DNA of 64,000 nucleotides, taken from NCBI RefSeq assembly GCF_024296665.1, contig NZ_CP100762.1:434001-498000 (forward strand), written 5' to 3'. Numbering within the stretch: position 1 is the first letter of the stretch; each line of letters begins with the position of its first letter. Shown here in pieces: positions 17,173 to 24,934 of the stretch. The position numbers and the translations under genes were made by a program. The notes beneath the pieces are model-generated. The model ran no database searches, was not told the origin of the DNA, and worked only from the letters and a program-made list of their open reading frames with translations. The stretch is from Salinilacihabitans rarus (GTDB taxonomy: Archaea > Halobacteriota > Halobacteria > Halobacteriales > Natrialbaceae).

Positions 17173-17937
17173 TCAGTCGAACTCCGGATCCCGTCCCTCG
17201 AGGAACGCCGAGACGCCCTCCTCGTGGGCCTCGGAGGTGTACGCCTGCACCTGCACGTGGTTCTCGTAGTCGAGCGCCGCCGACCAGTTCCGCCCGAGGT
17301 TCTCGTGTATCGCCCGCTTTGCCAGCCCGATGGTTCGCGTCGGTCGCCGGGAGAGGCGGTCGACGGTCTCGGCGACGCGCTCGTCGAGTTCCTCGGCGGG
17401 GACCGCCTCGTTGATCAGGTCGATCGCCGCGGCCCGCTCGGCCGGGAAGAACTCGCCGGTGAACGCCAGTTGCTTCGCGGTGCGCAGTCCGACCAGTTGC
17501 GGCAGCAGGAACGTCCCGCCCGTGTCGGGGATGAGGCCGACCCGGACGAACGCACACGAGAACGTCGCGTCCTCGGTCGCGTACGCGAAGTCGGCCAGCG
17601 CCGCGACGGCCAGTCCCGCCCCGACGGCGTCGCCGTTTACCTTCGCGACGGTGGGCACGCGACACTCGAGCATCTCCTCGACGACCCGCCCGAACGTCTC
17701 GGTGACCCGGTCGTAGGCCTCGCTCGGCCCCTCGTCGCGCTCGGCCATCGCCTGAATGTCGCCGCCGGCGCTGAACGCGTCGCCCTCGCCGGTGAGCACG
17801 ACCGCGTGGTGGTCGTCGGGGGAGGCGCTCGCCACCGCCTCGGCGAGTTCCTCGGCGGTCTCCGTCGAGAAGGCGTTGAGCACCGCCGGTCGGTCGAACG
17901 TGATTCGCAGGACGCCGTCGTCGTCTTCGACGCGCAT
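17173..17937 (-). CDS. Enoyl-CoA hydratase/isomerase family protein
   Basis: 254 residues from the ATG at 17937; the open frame reaches 18060 but without family similarity. It is a crotonase fold enzyme. The CoA-binding and oxyanion segments are FSAGGDIQAM and AKVNGDAVGAGLAVAALAD. The catalytic region is ATFSCAFVRVGLIPDTGGTFLLP, where a Glu-type acid/base residue of classical hydratases (E in '..s.Fg...iGl.pe.G') is represented by the D/T pair, so isomerase or other crotonase chemistry is possible. A leaderless promoter (AGTTAAGG, minus strand) lies about 28 nt upstream. Confidence 0.87.
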   Translation of the reverse strand: MRVEDDDGVLRITFDRPAVLNAFSTETAEELAEAVASASPDDHHAVVLTGEGDAFSAGGDIQAMAERDEGPSEAYDRVTETFGRVVEEMLECRVPTVAKVNGDAVGAGLAVAALADFAYATEDATFSCAFVRVGLIPDTGGTFLLPQLVGLRTAKQLAFTGEFFPAERAAAIDLINEAVPAEELDERVAETVDRLSRRPTRTIGLAKRAIHENLGRNWSAALDYENHVQVQAYTSEAHEEGVSAFLEGRDPEFD

Positions 17938-18160: not shown

Positions 18161-20347
18161 ATGGCACGCGGACCTTCGGGAACGAGTGAATCCGATAGTC
18201 GCAACGTACGCAGGGACTCCCTGCTGGATCGACGGTCGTACCTGAAAGCGGCCGGGATCGCGGCCGGCGTGATGGCCGGCGCGGCCGGCAGCGCCGCGGC
18301 GGCCGAGGACGCCGACGTGAACATCGTCGAGGCCGGCGCCGACGATACCGGGAACAGGGCGATCAACGACGTACTGGACCGCGTCCACGGGAGCGGCAAG
18401 ACGATCTACTTCCCGCCGGGGCGGTACCTGCTGCGGTCGTTCCGGACCGCCGCGAACGACTGGACGTGGGTCGGCGAGGACGCGACCATCGTCGTCCCCG
18501 GCAGCGAGAACCGGAACTACCTCTTCTTCGAGGGCGACCGGTGGACGTTCGACAACTTCACGATCGACCTGACGGCGTCCGGCGCCGCGCCGATCAACTA
18601 CCCCCGTGGCAACGACTGGGAGTTCAAGAACGTCGTCTTCGAGGGGCAGATGGACGACCCGGAGTACCGGGCCGGGTCGAACCTGCTGTACCCCAACGTC
18701 GACAGCGCCGGCGCGACCGGCGTGATCGAGAACGTGATCGCGACCGACGGGAGCGCCGACCCGGGCGACTCCTCCAACCGCGGCGGGTTGTGGGCCGGTC
18801 CGAGCAACGAGGGCCACCTGATCGTTCGCAACAGCCACTTCCGGCACTTCGCGAACAACACGCTGTACGTCGCGAACATCCCCGGCCGCGTGACGATCGA
18901 TGGCTGTCTCATCGAGGACAGCAACGTCGGCGTCCGCATCGGCGGCAACACGGCGGTCCGGGACACCGTCTTCGACCAGCGCGGGCCGGTGCCGCGGGCG
19001 CGCTGGTCCGGCGGCCGGGCGGCCCGGGGGATCTGGATCAACAGCAACTCCTACGTCCCCGGCGACATCGAGGTCGAAGGCTGTGATTTCCTGATGAACG
19101 GCCCGCAGGGCGCCCACGCCGTCTTCTCCCGGCGTCGCCTCGACGGGATCGAGATCCGTGACTGCCGGATCCACCAGAACGGCGGCTTCACCGGCATCGA
19201 GTTCGCCGACGGCGGCTCCGGCGCGACGGTGATCGAGGACACGAGCGTCGTCGGCGACTCCTCGAAACCCGCGATCAGGCTCGTCGACCGCGACGGGGCG
19301 CGGCTCCGGCGCGTCTGCGTCCAGAAGTCCGGCCCCGGGATCGAACTCCGCGGGTCGAGCAACGTCTCCGTCGAGGACTCGAACGTCAACGTCTCCGGAC
19401 AGCAGTTCACCGGCGTCGCGCCGTCGACCCGCGACGTCACCGCGAACGAGAGTTGCCCGGCGCCGTCGAGCGACTGGGACGGCGAGTCGGAGCCAGGCGA
19501 CGACCGCGACGACGAGGACGAACCCGCCGAACCCGAGGGGACCGAGGTCCGACTGGTGGGGACCGCCGAGTACGTGATCGAGGCCTCCGGCGAGGTGCAG
19601 CCGGCACCCGAGATCGCAGAGTGGGTCGAAGAGGGTGACCAGTACGGCGACGGCCGGGTCGAGTGGTACCTGACCGACTCCGAGACCGCGTGGTACGTCA
19701 CCGGCGAGATCGAGACCCTCGACGTGGACGACCCGAGCACCGTGACCGTCTACGTCGACGGCGAGGAGGTCGACCCCGAGACGTACCCCTCGGCGGACGA
19801 GGACGACGGCGAGCACAGCCTCCGTCTCGACGGGACCGCCGAGTACCTGATCGAAGTCAGCGGCGAGATCCGCCCCGCCGAGGAGATCGCCGAGTGGGTC
19901 GAGGAAGGCGAACAGTACGGCGACGGCTGGGCCGAGTGGTACCTGACCGACTCCTGGACCGAGTGGCAGTTCACCGGCGAGATAGAGCGGTTCGAACTCT
20001 CCGGCGCGGAGAACCTCGACGTCTACCTCGACGGCGACGCCGTCGACCCCGACGACCTCGGGGCCGACGACGGCGACGGCGTCCCGCCGAACCGGATCAC
20101 GATCACCGGCACGGGGACGCCGACGGAGTACACCTTCACCGCGAGCGGCGACGTCGTCGACAACCCCGACCGCGGAACCCTAGAAGAGTGGGACGAGATC
20201 GACGGCAGCACCGTCACGGGCTGGGTGACCGACCCCGAGCACGTCGACAGCTTCCGCTTCGAGGGATCGCTGACGAACCTCGAGTTACGCCAGGGCGAGG
20301 CGGAGGTCCGGGTCAACGGCGTCGCGGTCGACCCCGGGGACGTCTGA
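18161..20347 (+). CDS. Tat-exported right-handed beta-helix protein with three C-terminal repeat domains
   Basis: 728 residues from the ATG at 18161. A Tat signal (DRRSYLKAAG, R24-R25, then an Ala/Gly-rich stretch) predicts export with cleavage near residue 48. Residues about 50-440 look like a pectate-lyase-like parallel beta-helix: repeated short strands such as IVRNSHFRHFANNTLYV, VTIDGCLIEDSNVGVRIGG and IEIRDCRIHQNGGFTGIEF. An acidic linker (445-458) leads to three modules of about 85 residues (about 460-545, 552-635, 644-728). The first two are close copies (GTAEYvIE.SGE, AEWVEEG.QYGDG, EWYLTDS) and the third is diverged, ending RVNGVAVDP. No catalytic residues are recognisable, so it could be a polysaccharide lyase, hydrolase or structural surface protein. 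Confidence 0.85.
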   Translation: MARGPSGTSESDSRNVRRDSLLDRRSYLKAAGIAAGVMAGAAGSAAAAEDADVNIVEAGADDTGNRAINDVLDRVHGSGKTIYFPPGRYLLRSFRTAANDWTWVGEDATIVVPGSENRNYLFFEGDRWTFDNFTIDLTASGAAPINYPRGNDWEFKNVVFEGQMDDPEYRAGSNLLYPNVDSAGATGVIENVIATDGSADPGDSSNRGGLWAGPSNEGHLIVRNSHFRHFANNTLYVANIPGRVTIDGCLIEDSNVGVRIGGNTAVRDTVFDQRGPVPRARWSGGRAARGIWINSNSYVPGDIEVEGCDFLMNGPQGAHAVFSRRRLDGIEIRDCRIHQNGGFTGIEFADGGSGATVIEDTSVVGDSSKPAIRLVDRDGARLRRVCVQKSGPGIELRGSSNVSVEDSNVNVSGQQFTGVAPSTRDVTANESCPAPSSDWDGESEPGDDRDDEDEPAEPEGTEVRLVGTAEYVIEASGEVQPAPEIAEWVEEGDQYGDGRVEWYLTDSETAWYVTGEIETLDVDDPSTVTVYVDGEEVDPETYPSADEDDGEHSLRLDGTAEYLIEVSGEIRPAEEIAEWVEEGEQYGDGWAEWYLTDSWTEWQFTGEIERFELSGAENLDVYLDGDAVDPDDLGADDGDGVPPNRITITGTGTPTEYTFTASGDVVDNPDRGTLEEWDEIDGSTVTGWVTDPEHVDSFRFEGSLTNLELRQGEAEVRVNGVAVDPGDV

Positions 20348-20436
20348 GCGGCGTCGGGGACCGACCGCGCTCCGGTCGGGTTCTCTGACCCTCGGGCTGA
20401 CGCGACGGTAACGGGGCTGTACCCGTCCGAAGCCGT

Positions 20437-20444
20437 GATATAAC
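20437..20444 (+). promoter_or_regulatory. TATA box of the asparagine-synthetase-like gene
   Basis: GATATAAC, 30-37 nt before the ATG at 20474; supports independent transcription from the upstream beta-helix gene. Confidence 0.5.
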
Positions 20445-20473
20445 AATACCGGGTAACGGCGTCGGGTCCGGAC

Positions 20474-22300
20474 ATGGTCGGAATCACCGGCAGGCTGTCC
20501 CGACGGGAGCCCCGCCAGGGGTCGTTCGCGGAGTCGCTTCGGCCGCTGTTGCACACGGAGCGGCTGAACCCCCACATCGCGTACCGGACCGACGTCCACT
20601 CGGTCGGCTACACGGCCTACCCCGAGTACCCGATCCGGACGTTCGAGGCCGACGGCGTCCGGGTCTGCTTCGAGGGACGGCTCTACGACCGGCCGGCCGA
20701 CGCCGTCGAATCGGAGGTCATCGAGGTCGCCCGCCGGGCGCTGGCGGACGACCCGGATCCGGGGCCGATCCGCGACTGGCTGCTCGACGTCGACGGGGAG
20801 TTCCTGCTGGTCGCCTGCGACGTGGAGAGCGGGCGACTCGCCGTGCTCAACGACGCGCTCGCGCGGCTGCCGACGTACTACTACCGCGACGAGGACGCGT
20901 TCGTCCTCTCGCGCGAGATCCGTTACCTCCTCGAATCCATCGACGTCGAGTTCGACCGCCTCGGCGTCGCGCAGTGTCTCCTGTTCGGCTACACGCTGGG
21001 CGATCGAACGATCGTCGAGGGCGTCAGCCGACTCCGGCCGGCGACGCTGCTGACGGTCGAACCCGACTCGCTCGCGGTCACGACGACGCGGCTCCACACC
21101 TTCGACTTCGACGAGCACCGCCACGACGACCGGAGCCGGACGCGCAACGCCTCCGAACTCGTCTCGCGGTTCGAGACGGCCTGCGAGAACCGCGCGGGGT
21201 ACGCCGACCGCGACGTGATCTCGCTGAGCGGCGGGCTCGACTCCCGGTCGGTGCTCGCCGGCTACGCGGCGGCCGGGCTCTCGCCCGTGGCGGCCACGAT
21301 GGAGTCCGAGGAGTACGTCGCGCGGTCCGACGTCGAAATCGCCGAGCGGCTGGCGGCGGACTTCGACGTCGACTGGCGGACCTACCACGTCGGCCACCCG
21401 ACGGGTGCGGACCTCGACACGCTCGTGAAGACGAAAAACGGCCACATCGGGCTGATGACCTCGTTCATCCTCGACTTCTTCCGCCAGCTCGAAGCCGAGT
21501 TCGGCCCCGACGTCACGTACATCACCGGCGACGGCGGGGACAAGGCCCTCCCCGACCTGACCCCGGTCCGGTCGCTCTCCGAGGACGACCTCGTCGACTA
21601 CGTGCTGGCACAGAACAGCCTCGTCGACGTCGAGCGGGTGGCGGAGCTGACGCGGCTCTCCGAGGGCGAGATCAGGCGGAGCGTCCGCGAGCACGTCGAC
21701 GCGTTCCCGGAGCGGACCCCCGCCGGGAAGTACGTCCACTTCCTCGTGTACGGGCGGGCGGTCAACTTCCTGTTCGAGGGCGAGGACCGCAACCGGCTGT
21801 TCTTCTGGAGCGTGACGCCGTTTTACTCGCTGCCGTTTTTCCGGTACGCGATGAACTGCCCGCCGGAACAGAAGGAGCGGTACAAGCTCTACCGGTCGTT
21901 CCTCGGCCAACTCGCGCCGAGCGCCGCCGGCCGGGTCCACCCCATCTACGGGGCACCCGTCGACTCCTCGCGCCACGCCCTCGCGGCGCTCGTCGACGAC
22001 GTCCTCTCGCGGTACCCGTCCGTCTTCGAGACGGTGAAACCGTTCATCAAGGCGTTCAACGACCTCGACACGGGCTCGACGGTCGGCCCGGACACCGTCG
22101 ACTGCATCCGCCACCAGGTCGACCGCAACGACGTCGTCGACGACCTCTTCGACCGGCAGGCGCTCGACCGGATCATCGACGCCCACGACGAGTACGGGAA
22201 GTTCACCCTCTACCGGATCTTCGCGCTGACCTCCGTCGTCGACGACATCCACTCGACCCGGAGCGTCCTCGAGGCCAACCGGGACGCGGTGTTCGCCTGA
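20474..22300 (+). CDS. Asparagine-synthetase-like protein lacking the N-terminal catalytic Cys
   Basis: 608 residues. Residues 1-215 resemble the class II glutamine amidotransferase domain of AsnB, and residues 220-600 an ATP-pyrophosphatase synthetase domain with the PP-loop SGGLDSRS near 250 and the downstream ITGDGGD segment. The protein starts MVGITG where active AsnB has MCG, so the glutaminase nucleophile Cys2 is missing. It may use free ammonia or another amine, or activate a carboxylate without glutamine. Homologues of this type occur in polysaccharide and modified-peptide clusters, where they amidate sugar acids. Its position between two exported beta-helix genes suggests a link to surface or exopolysaccharide metabolism, which is inference. 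Confidence 0.82.
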   Translation: MVGITGRLSRREPRQGSFAESLRPLLHTERLNPHIAYRTDVHSVGYTAYPEYPIRTFEADGVRVCFEGRLYDRPADAVESEVIEVARRALADDPDPGPIRDWLLDVDGEFLLVACDVESGRLAVLNDALARLPTYYYRDEDAFVLSREIRYLLESIDVEFDRLGVAQCLLFGYTLGDRTIVEGVSRLRPATLLTVEPDSLAVTTTRLHTFDFDEHRHDDRSRTRNASELVSRFETACENRAGYADRDVISLSGGLDSRSVLAGYAAAGLSPVAATMESEEYVARSDVEIAERLAADFDVDWRTYHVGHPTGADLDTLVKTKNGHIGLMTSFILDFFRQLEAEFGPDVTYITGDGGDKALPDLTPVRSLSEDDLVDYVLAQNSLVDVERVAELTRLSEGEIRRSVREHVDAFPERTPAGKYVHFLVYGRAVNFLFEGEDRNRLFFWSVTPFYSLPFFRYAMNCPPEQKERYKLYRSFLGQLAPSAAGRVHPIYGAPVDSSRHALAALVDDVLSRYPSVFETVKPFIKAFNDLDTGSTVGPDTVDCIRHQVDRNDVVDDLFDRQALDRIIDAHDEYGKFTLYRIFALTSVVDDIHSTRSVLEANRDAVFA

Positions 22301-22337
22301 GCCGCGGCCGGGACCTACGGCGCGGTCCGCGGCCCCG

Positions 22338-23618
22338 TCAGTCCTCCAGCAACGTGTCGGGGTCGACCGCGACGCCGTTGACCCGGACCTCCGCCTCGCC
22401 GTCGACCGACAGCGACTCCAGCCGGCCGCTGAACCGGTAGGCGTCGAGCCAGTTTGCGACCTCGCCGCTCGCGCGGTTGCCGTCGACCTCCGCGGCGTCG
22501 TCGACCGTCGCGCCGTCGTCGGTGCTGGCCGCGACCGCCCCGGAGACGGTGAACTCGTAGCTGGTGATCTCGTCGGACCCCTTCTCGCGGCCGTCGAAGA
22601 AGATCGTGTTCAACAGGAGCGGCTCGTCGTCGCCCTCGACGGAGCCGCCAGCGGCCGCCTCCTCGGCGCTCGTGGGGACGCCCTCGGGGACCTCGGTCGT
22701 CGGATTCGAGCCGGCGCCTTCGACGGTGAACTCGCTCGTGGGCCGGTCGCCGGCGAACTCGCAGTCGCGCAGGGTCGCGGTGCCGCCCTGGGCCGTCGTC
22801 GTCATGCTCCCGGGGGTCTCCCACGTGAAGTGGCAGTCTTCGAGGACGATGTCGGAGGGGTTCGACCGGTACCACGCCCAGATACCCCGGCCGCCGGGGT
22901 AGCCGGTCGCGTCGTGGACGAAGACGCAGTCGCGGGCGCGACTCCCCTTCGTCCCCAGCCGCAGGTGGTTGACGCCGTTGCCCCGGAAGTAACACGACTC
23001 GAGTTTGACCGGGCCGCCGCTGGGCCCGGCGCCGGAGGCGTAGGCCGCGTTCGAGGGCCACCCCGCGAAGTGGACGCGGTCGAGTTCGAGGGTGCCGGCG
23101 TGCTCGCTCGACGCCCACAGCGCGCTGCGCCCCCAGTTCTTGCCGCCGTGGACGCCGCAGTCGTCCTCGCCGACGCTCGACCCGTCGCCGAGGTAGACGT
23201 TCTCGATCCGGCCGGTCGACCCGGCGTCGACGGCCGCGGTGATCGCGAAACACGGCGGGTCGTTGCGGAGGTCGTGGTCGCCGCGGAAGCCGACGTCGCG
23301 GATCGTCCAGTCGCTGCCGCGCGCGTGGATCGTCGCCGCCGTGTTCGACGCGGTACAGTCGATCAGGACGTTCTCGAACGTCTCGCCGCTGCCGACCGAG
23401 ATGACCTCGTGTTGGCCCGAGGGGACCTCGATCACGTCGTAGTCGTCCGACGCCGCGGCCGCCGTTCCGCTCGCGGCGGCCGTCGCCGCGCCGGCCGCGG
23501 CCGCGCCCACCATCCCGAGGTACGCGCGACGGTGGATCGAACCGTCCCTGTTCGGCCGTTCGCGGGTGTCGTCCGCGTCGGCAGTCTCGTCATCCAGTAC
23601 GTCAGGTTCGCGTGCCAT
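22338..23618 (-). CDS. Tat-exported right-handed beta-helix protein with C-terminal beta domain
   Basis: 426 residues from the ATG at 23618. It has a Tat signal (HRRAYLGMVG, R30-R31, then Ala-rich), then a parallel beta-helix region of about 70-330: NVLIDCTASNTAATIHARG, WTIRDVGFRGDHD, VKLESCYFRGNGVNHLRLG, IVLEDCHFTWETPG. The last 80 residues (SYEFTVSGAV, ANWLDAYRFSGRLESL, EVRVNGVAVDP) are the same module as the third C-terminal repeat of the protein at 18161-20347. It converges on the asparagine-synthetase-like gene (38 nt apart). An Asp/Ser linker lies near residues 300-335. The two beta-helix proteins are probably paralogues acting on the same surface or polymer. Confidence 0.83.
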   Translation of the reverse strand: MAREPDVLDDETADADDTRERPNRDGSIHRRAYLGMVGAAAAGAATAAASGTAAAASDDYDVIEVPSGQHEVISVGSGETFENVLIDCTASNTAATIHARGSDWTIRDVGFRGDHDLRNDPPCFAITAAVDAGSTGRIENVYLGDGSSVGEDDCGVHGGKNWGRSALWASSEHAGTLELDRVHFAGWPSNAAYASGAGPSGGPVKLESCYFRGNGVNHLRLGTKGSRARDCVFVHDATGYPGGRGIWAWYRSNPSDIVLEDCHFTWETPGSMTTTAQGGTATLRDCEFAGDRPTSEFTVEGAGSNPTTEVPEGVPTSAEEAAAGGSVEGDDEPLLLNTIFFDGREKGSDEITSYEFTVSGAVAASTDDGATVDDAAEVDGNRASGEVANWLDAYRFSGRLESLSVDGEAEVRVNGVAVDPDTLLED

Positions 23619-23829: not shown

Positions 23830-24516
23830 GTGACTCGGCTCGTGTCCCGAACGCGCCAGACGAGCGCCCCCGGCGAAGCGGCGCCCGAACCGGTCCCTGT
23901 CCCCGAGGAGCGCGTCCTCCGGGCGTGGCTCGCCCGGGAGGCCGACCGCGGCGCGGCCCCCGTCGATCCGGAGTCGGTCCCGACGGACCGGACGGCGATG
24001 CTCGACGCGCTCCTCGCGGCGAAGCCGGGGGCGGCGGCGTTCGTCTGGCGCGAGCGACCCGTCCGCTGGTACCGACTCGACCTCGACTGGGATCGCTTCG
24101 CGGCGCTCCGGCCGGTGAACGGCCCGGACGACGCCCTGTGGCGGGCCGCCTCCACGGACGGGACCCTGTTCGGCGTGGCCGAGCGGGCCCGCGAGGAGGG
24201 GTTCGCCCCGCTCCGGGAGGCGGGAATCGACCCGGCGGCGATCCGCGCGTACCGCGACGACCTCGCCGCCGGGCGACGACTCGACCCGCTTGTCGTCCGG
24301 ACCAGACGCGGCGCGACCCCGTGGTTCGTCGCCGACGGGAACCACCGGGCGACGGCGGTGGCGCTGCACGCCCTCGAAACCGGCCGGTACGATCCCCAGA
24401 CGGCCTACGTGGCCGTGACCGCGAACCCCGTCCTCGGGCCGGCGCTCGCTCGCGTGCGGGGGCTCCTCCAGCGTCTTCGCGGACGGACGATCGGTCACGG
24501 GGGCGTACGGCGGTGA
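23830..24516 (+). CDS. ParB/Srx-fold-like protein
   Basis: 228 residues from a GTG at 23830 (GTG at 23841 is also possible). The recognisable part is near the C-terminus: RRLDPLVVRTRRG, then VADGNHRATAVALHALETG. That is the 'DG.HR..A' pattern of ParB/Srx-like nucleotide-binding folds. There is no HTH domain, so it is not a chromosome-partition ParB. The rest is helical and charged. Stand-alone ParB-like proteins turn up in haloarchaeal polysaccharide clusters, but the role is unknown. It follows the beta-helix/Asn-synthetase block and precedes the tRNA repeat array. Confidence 0.65.
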   Translation: MTRLVSRTRQTSAPGEAAPEPVPVPEERVLRAWLAREADRGAAPVDPESVPTDRTAMLDALLAAKPGAAAFVWRERPVRWYRLDLDWDRFAALRPVNGPDDALWRAASTDGTLFGVAERAREEGFAPLREAGIDPAAIRAYRDDLAAGRRLDPLVVRTRRGATPWFVADGNHRATAVALHALETGRYDPQTAYVAVTANPVLGPALARVRGLLQRLRGRTIGHGGVRR

Positions 24517-24550
24517 CGGCGTCGCCGCTCGGGCGGTCGTCCGTGATGAG

Positions 24551-24857
24551 AGCGGGCCGCGATTCGAACCACGCCCGAGAACCCGCTCACTTCGTTCGCG
24601 GAACCTCGATTTACGTCAGAGTCCGCCGATGGCGGACTCTGACCGCACGGTCGGACGTGCTCGCTTCGTTGCGCGCAGCCTCCCTGCGTTCAAATCGTGC
24701 CTGCCGCTTCGCTCCTCGCGAATCGTTCGTCGCAGAAAGCGGGCCGGGCGCGATTTGAACACACAGTCGGACGTGCTCACTCCGTTCCGCGCGACCTCCC
24801 TACGTTCAAATCCCGCCGGATCCGATGCTCACCGCTCGCGGAGTTGCTCGCGGTGAG
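24551..24857. repeat. Array of decayed tRNA-Lys 3'-end copies and flanking repeats
   Basis: Downstream of tRNA-Lys lie partial copies of its 3' end. A 26-nt exact copy (24737-24762 versus 24858-24883 in the gene) covers the T-arm and acceptor, and a diverged copy starts at 24551. A second repeat of 47 nt (24650-24696 and 24766-24812, 41 of 47 identical) has the same spacing of about 116-121 bp, so the array is a tandem repeat of a unit of that length. Each unit also holds the T-loop box in both orientations (GATTTGAAC ... GTTCAAATC). A perfect 13-bp hairpin sits at 24615-24643. No protein-coding sequence is apparent. Confidence 0.75.
24615..24643. repeat. Perfect 13-bp inverted repeat
   Basis: GTCAGAGTCCGCC and its exact reverse complement, separated by GAT. 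It lies inside the tRNA-derived repeat array. It could fold as a stable hairpin in RNA or be a mobile-element end. Confidence 0.8.
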
Positions 24858-24860
24858 AAG

Positions 24861-24934
24861 CGGGCCGGGCGCGATTTGAACACGCGACCGACGGATTAAG
24901 AGTCCGTCGCTCTGCCTAACTGAGCTACCGGCCC
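24861..24934 (-). tRNA. tRNA-Lys (anticodon CTT)
   Basis: A 74-nt cloverleaf on the minus strand. The acceptor stem is GGGCCGG/CCGGCCC with discriminator G, the D-arm is AGCTCAGTTAGGCAGAGC, the anticodon stem is ACGGA/TCCGT around the loop CTCTTAA (anticodon CTT, reads AAG Lys), and the T-arm has loop TTCAAAT. There is no intron and CCA is not encoded, as usual in haloarchaea. A TATA-like CGTATTTCAATAC (24958-24970, minus strand) lies about 25 nt upstream. Fragments of its 3' end are repeated downstream. Confidence 0.95.

Follow-up and report, generated by a model that had tools for sequence, protein, structure and literature searches.

AsnB-like formation of uronamides has a precedent in PGN_1234/WbpS, as described in PMC7468200. 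Proteins of the WbpS/WbqG/PGN_1234 group (TIGR03108) combine a two-domain AsnB architecture with a PP-loop and are encoded in O-antigen, A-LPS, and EPS loci, some of which contain FemAB-like and deacetylase genes as neighbors. Right-handed beta-helix proteins are also encoded with polysaccharide genes, examples being WceF of Pantoea stewartii, which has a Tat signal, RbmB of Vibrio, and the AlgE/AlgG-type epimerases. Class II amidotransferases generally have an N-terminal glutaminase Cys; this nucleophile is lost in beta-lactam synthetase and lasso peptide cyclase, which, like hydroxyamidotransferase, have the AsnB fold with the synthetase half retained. In the Wbp/Vim linking-sugar pathway of Porphyromonas, diamino-uronic-acid-type enzymes, an acyltransferase, a flippase, and an AsnB-like enzyme occur in one genome. 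A T9SS is not known from archaea.

Here, we analyzed a locus of Salinilacihabitans rarus (GCF_024296665.1, NZ_CP100762.1, 434,001-498,000; this stretch of 64,000 nt is referred to below as the window), where an AsnB-like gene lies between two genes for exported beta-helix proteins (18161-23618). The AsnB-like protein P0002 shares with the WbpS group the domain architecture, the PP-loop, the polysaccharide gene context of many of its relatives, and, in some loci, the FemAB-like and deacetylase neighbors. It differs in lacking the Cys at the N-terminus along with other glutaminase residues, in its low score with the group model, and in the exported beta-helices accompanying it. The helix proteins P0001 and P0003 resemble WceF in their Tat signal and, through many relatives, the other enzymes of this kind in being encoded with polysaccharide genes. 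However, they are archaeal, carry additional repeated C-terminal modules, have an AsnB-like partner, and show no detectable sequence relation to WceF, RbmB, or AlgE/AlgG-type enzymes. From the known Cys-less AsnB-like ligases, P0002 is distinguished by its genomic context and a TGDGGDK motif; neither a precursor peptide nor a McjB-like partner was noticed among its immediate neighbors. The genome also holds candidates for the enzyme types of the Wbp/Vim pathway, but in two loci. No description of the trio layout was found in the open-licence literature searched.

Organization of the locus

The features of the locus are listed in Table 1. That two Tat beta-helix proteins with a common C-terminal module surround a Cys-less AsnB-like protein, as the first-pass annotation had read from the sequence, was confirmed by open reading frames, Pfam, structure models, and alignments. 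P0003 is convergent with P0002, with 37 nt between the stops.

Table 1. Features of the trio and its borders (positions in the window).
Feature	Position	Strand	Basis
Left border, enoyl-CoA-hydratase-like gene (echA), outside module	17173-17937	-	Natronosalvus synteny
P0001, Tat-exported right-handed beta-helix protein, 728 aa	18161-20347	+	ORF, PF13229, structure model
P0001 N-terminal Tat signal region, RR at residues 24-25	18161-18304	+	Sequence; RR 19/19 in alignment A3
P0001 beta-helix domain, about residues 50-437	18308-19471	+	Structure model
P0001 three tandem C-terminal modules	19556-19786, 19826-20059, 20111-20344	+	Iterated HMM, alignment
P0002, AsnB-like ligase, 608 aa	20474-22300	+	ORF, PF00733, PP-loop motifs
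P0003, Tat-exported right-handed beta-helix protein, 426 aa	22338-23618	-	ORF, structure model
P0003 single C-terminal module, same family as P0001 modules	22350-22577	-	Iterated HMM, alignment
P0003 beta-helix domain, about residues 57-326	22641-23450	-	Structure model
Right border, tRNA-Lys (ctt), outside module	24860-24934	-	Natronosalvus synteny

The block had been likened to an accessory island bordered by tRNA-linked repeats and a ParB-like gene. The repeats are present: copies of a 26-nt stretch from the tRNA-Lys 3' end precede the tRNA-Lys. The gene at 23830-24516 has no support as ParB-like among Pfam or NCBIfam models. Both halves of the locus are syntenic with Natronosalvus, where AsnB, echA, and a PRC gene form one conserved block and P0001, tRNA-Lys, and a DHH gene another, in which the tRNA separates the P0001 orthologue from the DHH gene. 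The echA gene is 78.7% identical to the Natronosalvus gene adjoining the AsnB orthologue (locus L056). Because of this synteny of the flanks, the island reading is unsupported, and a genomic island at tRNA-Lys was dropped. The base composition of the block is also ordinary (GC 0.66-0.70, as elsewhere in the window).

The AsnB-like protein

P0002 is a single copy in the genome and matches Pfam Asn_synthase PF00733 with 25 bits (cut-off 21). The PP-loop is intact (SLSGGLDS), and its residues S252, G253, G254, D256, and S257 are invariant across alignment A1. The N-terminus reads MVGITG where AsnB has MCGI, so that the glutaminase Cys is absent, and the Asn/Glu pair of the glutaminase half is changed too. 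None of 78 related loci had an MCG N-terminus; 63 had M/L/V followed by P/V/A/S and G, nine had no such motif, and six were cut at the 5' end. Since Cys, Asn, and Glu of the glutaminase half are lost, free ammonia or another amine would be needed. Amidation of sugar acids, as first proposed for this protein, therefore has to be read in a modified way, its plain glutamine-dependent form being unlikely judging from these residues.

The score with the eps_aminotran_1/WbpS model TIGR03108 was 47.3 bits against a cut-off of 816.9. Matches to the lasso peptide cyclase model NF033535 (32.6 bits, cut-off 525) and the albusnodin cyclase model (41.6 bits, cut-off 300) were so far under the cut-offs that P0002 as a lasso/RiPP cyclase was dropped. 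As single sequences, P0001, P0002, and P0003 matched nothing among the sequences of solved structures; only the AsnB profile found matches, namely AsnB, beta-lactam synthetase, and hydroxyamidotransferase, of which the last (7ylz) is nearest to the family. In two plasmid records the AsnB-family gene is annotated "hypothetical protein" or "asparagine synthase-related protein."

The exported beta-helix proteins

P0001 matches Pfam Beta_helix PF13229 with 44 bits (cut-off 25.9). P0003 remains under the cut-off with 17.7 bits, and its structure model is a right-handed beta-helix. Both N-termini carry twin-arginine motifs (DRRSYLK in P0001 and HRRAYLG in P0003), and RR is invariant in both families (19/19 aligned rows extending that far for P0001 and 29/29 for P0003). 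The two proteins are homologous across the helix (E 3e-17). The C-terminal module is common to both (49% over 72 columns, E 5e-12); it occurs in one to six repeats according to iterated HMM searches and matched no Pfam family.

The P0001 model (pLDDT 82.2) matched the Sf6 tailspike (Z 31.6) and AlgE6 (Z 31.0). Polysaccharide lyases, C5-epimerases, and tailspikes were fold matches of both helices (Z about 20 and 31), which upholds the expectation of a polysaccharide-related fold. The best Foldseek match of P0001 was the adhesin PfbA (E 2.3e-7), and P0003 matched WceF (6tgf, E 1e-3). All polysaccharide-cleaving Pfam families were under cut-off for both proteins, and P0003 had no match among phage records. 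D136, N233, Y236, and R259 are invariant in the P0001 family (28/28 rows), as are D87, Y193, R220, and R244 in the P0003 family (30/30 rows). In the alignment, five conserved positions are equivalent in both helices: D, N, Y, R, and R.

Conservation of the pairing across genomes

Of 44 haloarchaeal loci, 22 had a beta-helix gene no more than two genes away from AsnB. The 44 were the AsnB matches with retrieved flanks together with 9 of the 19 loci of another haloarchaeal set; those left out were mostly from the same contigs or further Natrinema, besides a short contig (L083) and L182, where AsnB was missed by the gene caller, a home-made one based on codon log-odds. After removal of duplicates (L090, L096) and gene calls under 450 aa (those of L063 and of the broken L193 gene), the pairing was found in 21 of 40 rows; the other 19 had no beta-helix nearby. 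L096 was taken as the L186 genome by position, although the records differ by 100 in length, and second Halegenticoccus copies (two rows) were kept apart. The adjacency spans several haloarchaeal families, and in four further loci (L078, L079, L186, and L187) beta-helices stand on both sides of AsnB, with a glycosyltransferase between AsnB and a helix in L079.

The second AsnB-like set (L202-L221) served as a partial control only; its use as a "canonical AsnB" control was rejected, as MCG was present in none of them. One clade of this set had no beta-helix within two genes (0/14 vs. 21/40, Fisher p 2.5e-4), and two of its loci that were inspected had siderophore-type neighbors (lysine/ornithine N-monooxygenase and siderophore-type acetyltransferase). 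A smaller clade had a beta-helix in 4 of 7. For hold-out loci, the prediction was fixed before retrieval, and a beta-helix was adjacent in 6/10, or in 8/12 counting L222 and L225, which had been seen earlier and therefore stand outside the 6/10. The background rate of 0.015 in the hold-out binomial was estimated from the number of matches per genome rather than measured. The pairing thus recurs in other genomes, and the trio is not a chance neighborhood. In the Natronosalvus group, which represents the nearest genus (G052, G065, G087, and G032), hundreds of kb separate AsnB from the P0001 orthologue, and the gene resembling P0003 accompanies neither of them; therefore, the three genes need not be one operon.

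Glycan genes near relatives and elsewhere in the genome

A Wzx-type flippase was present within four genes of AsnB in 18 of the 44 haloarchaeal loci. Other families near AsnB were GT4, phosphodiesterase, Acetyltransf_6/FemAB, DUF1616, and VimE-like deacetylase, and sulfatase- or phosphodiesterase-type enzymes accompany the AsnB/beta-helix pair in relatives. FemAB- and VimE-like genes occurred near AsnB in L064, L065, L087, and L129, the FemAB match being weak (23 bits, cut-off 260). In Halomontanus, an ATP-grasp "sugar-transfer" gene is close to AsnB and two beta-helices. Among bacterial relatives, AsnB adjoins a beta-helix gene in Nitrospira, an alginate lyase and a flippase in Lamprocystis, and flippase/GT genes in Bacteroidetes. 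About half of the 20 bacterial neighborhoods scanned (picked by eye from 183) were polysaccharide-type; the rest were without a family or, like gyrase B, MotA, and signal peptidase, unrelated. Flippases, glycosyltransferases, and FemAB-like genes of relatives, together with the fold matches, support the surface-polymer context suggested earlier. Of the two outcomes that the first-pass annotation had named as refuting it, neighbors that occur together in no other genome and helices lacking a polysaccharide-related fold, neither was observed. This polysaccharide-locus location was seen for many AsnB relatives and not in the immediate neighborhood in the window, where neither a flippase nor a glycosyltransferase adjoins the trio.

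About 470 kb from the trio, the same genome carries a cluster of glycan genes, among which are paralogues of the beta-helices as well as Wzx, GT4, and Acetyltransf_6. It includes a Wbp-like operon of four fitting families (nucleotide-sugar dehydrogenase, UDP-GlcNAc 3-dehydrogenase-like, DegT, and hexapeptide transferase), with TIGR03026 over and NF040723 under the cut-off. P0002 is encoded outside this cluster.

Discussion

We favor, with moderate confidence, the explanation that the trio is a unit modifying an acidic surface polysaccharide or glycan, composed of a WbpS-like amide ligase without its own glutaminase and WceF-like exported beta-helix proteins. The intracellular AsnB-like protein would activate a sugar-acid carboxylate with ATP by PP-loop adenylation and form an amide; the nucleophile would be free ammonia or the amine of an amino acid or amino sugar. 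The sugar acid may originate from the putative Wbp-like diamino-uronic-acid operon, which could supply the substrate for the trio. The beta-helix proteins, presumably exported folded via Tat, would act on the finished polymer outside the cell by cutting, epimerizing, or binding it in a groove that conserved Asp, Asn, Tyr, and Arg residues line. The repeated C-terminal modules probably keep the helices on the polymer or the cell surface. Points against this explanation are the dispersal of the genes in the Natronosalvus group, the lack of an adjoining flippase or glycosyltransferase in the window, the opposite strand of P0003, the 19 of 40 rows without a nearby beta-helix, the absence of a match to any characterized catalytic site, the adhesin PfbA as best Foldseek match of P0001, and the score of P0002 far under the TIGR03108 cut-off.

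The helices could instead be non-enzymatic surface adhesins or lectins that bind the polymer or other cells, with the AsnB-like enzyme still in a glycan pathway. The PfbA match, the one to six C-terminal modules, and the lack of a polysaccharide-cleaving Pfam model over cut-off are in line with this, but polar residues conserved at equivalent sites of both helices and the lyases and C5-epimerases among the best whole-fold matches argue against it, and we consider the adhesin explanation somewhat unlikely. It is quite improbable that a linking sugar made by AsnB-like, FemAB-like, deacetylase, and Wbp-like enzymes anchors exported proteins, e.g., the helices, to a surface glycan in the manner of the Wbp/Vim pathway: the Wbp-like operon, Acetyltransf_6, and beta-helix paralogues do share one cluster, and FemAB-/VimE-like genes and the Halomontanus ATP-grasp gene do lie near AsnB, but the FemAB match is weak and AsnB is outside the cluster.

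An AsnB-like protein forming peptide/RiPP amides (lasso or macrolactam cyclase) or acting on small molecules, with incidental helix neighbors, would explain the weak cyclase matches and the siderophore-type genes beside related Cys-less proteins. The scores far under the cut-offs, the conserved beta-helix and flippase neighbors, and the absence of beta-helices from the siderophore-linked clade make it very improbable. Ordinary asparagine synthesis next to two unrelated exported proteins is hardly credible: the split of the trio in the closest genus would fit it, but the adjacency recurs in several families and in the hold-out loci, and helices stand on both sides of AsnB in four further loci.

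Returning to a polymer-modifying unit, a more specific proposal, which we hold to be speculative and unlikely as it stands, is that the glutaminase-dead AsnB family (MVG/MPG, TGDGGDK; haloarchaea and some bacteria) comprises ligases joining a non-glutamine amine (amino acid or amino sugar) to a diamino-uronic-acid carboxylate in surface polymers, with the Tat beta-helices as processing enzymes or anchored cargo. If true, archaea would have a new class of enzymes for decorating surface glycans with amino acids. One amino-acid-substituted sugar of this kind, ManNAcA6Thr, has been described in a methanogen, and a 2010 review (PMC2952790) gives its ligase as unidentified. Should the AsnB family indeed consist of glutaminase-free amide ligases, the origin of amino-acid-substituted uronic acids in archaeal glycans could be explained as well. 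The recurrent pairing of an AsnB-like enzyme with an exported beta-helix provides a defined, testable entry point, and the recurrence of close relatives of the set within surface-polysaccharide clusters of many haloarchaea points to an unstudied modification of the outer sugar coat.

Organization of the locus and its beta-helix proteins

The trio lies on the 3.62 Mb chromosome of a haloarchaeon (window at G000:C1:434001-498000). An AsnB-like gene (P0002) stands between the genes of two beta-helix proteins (P0001 and P0003), with gaps of 126 nt (P0001/P0002) and 37 nt (P0002/P0003).

Features of the locus and of related loci; positions refer to the window unless a locus or chromosome C1 is named
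Feature	Position	Strand	Remark
P0001	18161-20347	+	beta-helix protein
P0002	20474-22300	+	AsnB-like
P0003	22338-23618	-	beta-helix protein
Module copies	19556-20344 (P0001), 22350-22577 (P0003)		without Pfam family
Gene between P0003 and tRNA-Lys	23830-24516		DGNHR-like stretch
tRNA-Lys 3'-end copies	24546-24883		upstream of gene
Wbp-like operon for diamino-uronic acid	L049:13840-17955 (C1:943.8-948.0 kb)		in glycan cluster with beta-helix paralogues
Annotated decarboxylase, Haloterrigena alkaliphila	L241:2621-3421		protein-sorting system
Second Cys-less AsnB-like clade	L203:7462-11244, L206:8027-11805		beside PF13434 and PF13523 genes

Both beta-helix proteins had a Tat-type RR start, and their helix regions were homologous (E 3e-17). 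P0001 matched Pfam Beta_helix (44 bits); P0003 scored under the cut-off by sequence. AlphaFold models reached pLDDT 82.2 for P0001 and 77.7 for P0003, with much of the helix of the latter above 90. VIA-align matched P0001 to the Sf6 tailspike (Z 31.6, 2.5 Å, 329 aligned), AlgE6 (Z 31.0), PL6 alginate lyases (Z about 30.6), and RbmB (Z 29.0), and P0003 (residues about 48-326) to alginate lyase (Z 20.7, 3.4 Å, 226 aligned) and mannuronan epimerase AlgE6 (Z 19.3). The fold by itself shows no activity, because the best Foldseek match of P0001 was an adhesin. Five polar positions equivalent in the pairwise alignment (D136/D87, N233/N190, Y236/Y193, R259/R220, and R289/R244 in P0001/P0003) were strongly conserved within both families, as would be seen in a common substrate groove.

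Both proteins also shared a C-terminal module (about 75 residues; E 5e-12), with three copies in P0001 and one in P0003. At E <= 1e-6, the eight copies in the window genome were confined to P0001, P0003, and a single paralogue at 923 kb. Of 120 genomes sampled from the phylum, 10 carried the module, and these all belonged to the window's own order. Across haloarchaeal beta-helix proteins it was repeated 1 to 6 times, and in Halorussus (L080, L084) a small Tat-type protein near AsnB also carried it on its own.

The AsnB-like family

P0002, the sole member of its family in the window genome, exceeded the Asn_synthase cut-off and matched asn_synth_AEB (52 bits) and eps_aminotran_1 (47 bits) weakly, both far under cut-off. 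In alignment A1, covering 14 relatives, the PP-loop SGG-DS and TGDGG were invariant, and V or P occupied the site of the glutaminase catalytic Cys; the FNGEIYN-type motif was FEGRLYD or similar, vs. CYNGEIYN in the aligned asparagine synthetase. Scanning of the genome collection yielded 78 related loci (haloarchaea, Bacteroidota, Zixibacteria, Nitrospira, Chromatiaceae, and others). An MCG start was found in none of them; the Cys was replaced by P, V, A, or S in 63, nine were without such a motif, and six were cut at the 5' end. The glutaminase half is thus kept as a fold but looks dead family-wide. Beta-lactam synthetase and lasso cyclases are known to have gone the same way, and the A1 profile matched beta-lactam synthetase and hydroxyamidotransferase in the PDB.

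The first-pass annotation had described exported-type beta-helix proteins sharing a C-terminal module around an AsnB-like enzyme without glutaminase Cys, with a polysaccharide-related fold expected of the former; the RR starts and homologies, the residues at the Cys site, and the alginate lyases, AlgE6, and tailspike among the VIA-align matches all agree with this description.

In the loci L203 and L206, a second haloarchaeal Cys-less clade was neighbored by a PF13434 gene (lysine/ornithine N-monooxygenase) and a PF13523 gene (siderophore-type acetyltransferase), families scanned in L203; it is possibly an AsnB-type amide ligase for hydroxamate siderophore synthesis.

Conservation of the neighborhood

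Flanks of AsnB loci were fetched in relatives, and genes were called on them. The proposed neighbors were kept together in other genomes: in 22 of the 44 loci, AsnB had a same-cluster beta-helix gene no more than two genes away; in 19 the two directly adjoined, and in 18 a flippase lay within four genes. After removal of duplicates and short rows, a beta-helix gene was at that distance of up to two genes in 21/40 rows of the main clade, which includes P0002, vs. 0/14 of another AsnB-like clade (Fisher p 2.5e-4). On the tree, this label was scattered over most haloarchaeal branches, forcing at least eight changes. A new order-wide draw revealed the AsnB-like gene in 31 of 293 genomes. As predicted beforehand, a beta-helix gene adjoined it in previously unseen loci (6/10; 8/12 including two loci seen earlier). 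The exact layout, with helix genes on both sides, was also found in Halorubrum (L078, L079), Salinarchaeum (L186), and L187.

Other families near AsnB in relatives were Wzx-type flippase, GT4, type I phosphodiesterase, Acetyltransf_6/FemAB, DUF1616, and a VimE-like deacetylase. In a public record of Halomontanus, one row of genes runs from a sugar-transfer ATP-grasp protein through an aspartoacylase-family protein and AsnB to two beta-helix proteins; in one of Haloterrigena alkaliphila, the row comprises AsnB, beta-helix, and flippase. About 5.6 kb from AsnB, the latter carries an annotated archaetidylserine decarboxylase, a possible link to archaeosortase anchoring. Bacterial neighbors were scanned for 20 of 183, picked by eye. 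A beta-helix gene adjoined AsnB in Nitrospira, an alginate-lyase-family gene and a flippase in Lamprocystis, and a flippase and glycosyltransferases were nearby in Bacteroidetes.

Locus history

Natronosalvus has AsnB next to echA and PRC, its P0001 orthologue (about 55%) next to tRNA-Lys and the DHH gene, and a P0003-like gene at a third site. The trio in the window spans exactly these two borders. We read this as an old AsnB-helix linkage split in Natronosalvus, because AsnB-helix adjacency is widespread; fusion of the trio in the window's lineage is a conceivable alternative. In neither case, split or fusion, does the block resemble a recent island, contrary to the accessory-island suggestion; both borders are matched in Natronosalvus.

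Upstream of the tRNA-Lys gene, its 26-nt 3'-end stretch recurs in a perfect copy and in one at 69%; these are possibly remnants of old integration events. The gene preceding them, with a DGNHR-like stretch that we take to be ParB/sulfiredoxin-type, was without Pfam support and unmatched in the five Natronosalvus-group loci compared.

Possible role in glycan modification

A glycan cluster at C1:910-950 kb, about 470 kb from the trio, contained two beta-helix paralogues, Wzx, GT4, Acetyltransf_6, a sulfatase, and DUF1616, and also a TFB and a DUF7344-type regulator. Its four-gene operon encodes a nucleotide-sugar dehydrogenase (350 bits vs. cut-off 190), a UDP-GlcNAc 3-dehydrogenase-like protein (under cut-off), a DegT aminotransferase, and a hexapeptide transferase. 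Judged by family, the four form a set of the type used by the Wbp route to diacetamido-uronic acids, a route outlined in PMC7468200. The cluster lacks a P0002-family gene and P0002 is the only member in the genome; thus P0002 is the candidate for the amide step on a diacetamido-uronic-acid-type sugar, a link that we infer.

WbpS/PGN_1234 converts uronic acid to uronamide, by genetics and MS (PMC7468200). P0002 works at most like these enzymes, unlike which it falls short of the family score cut-off and lacks the Cys. P0001 and P0003 are similar in fold, export, and context to WceF, a Tat-signalled beta-helix hydrolase with its gene in an EPS cluster (PMC7949094). The methanogen sugar ManNAcA6Thr carries an amino acid at the carboxyl position, and its ligase was not identified as of 2010, as stated in a review of that year (PMC2952790). 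No description of the AsnB-like/beta-helix combination was found in the open-licence literature searched for the layout. The combination here is a variation on known kinds, and it is widespread in haloarchaea.
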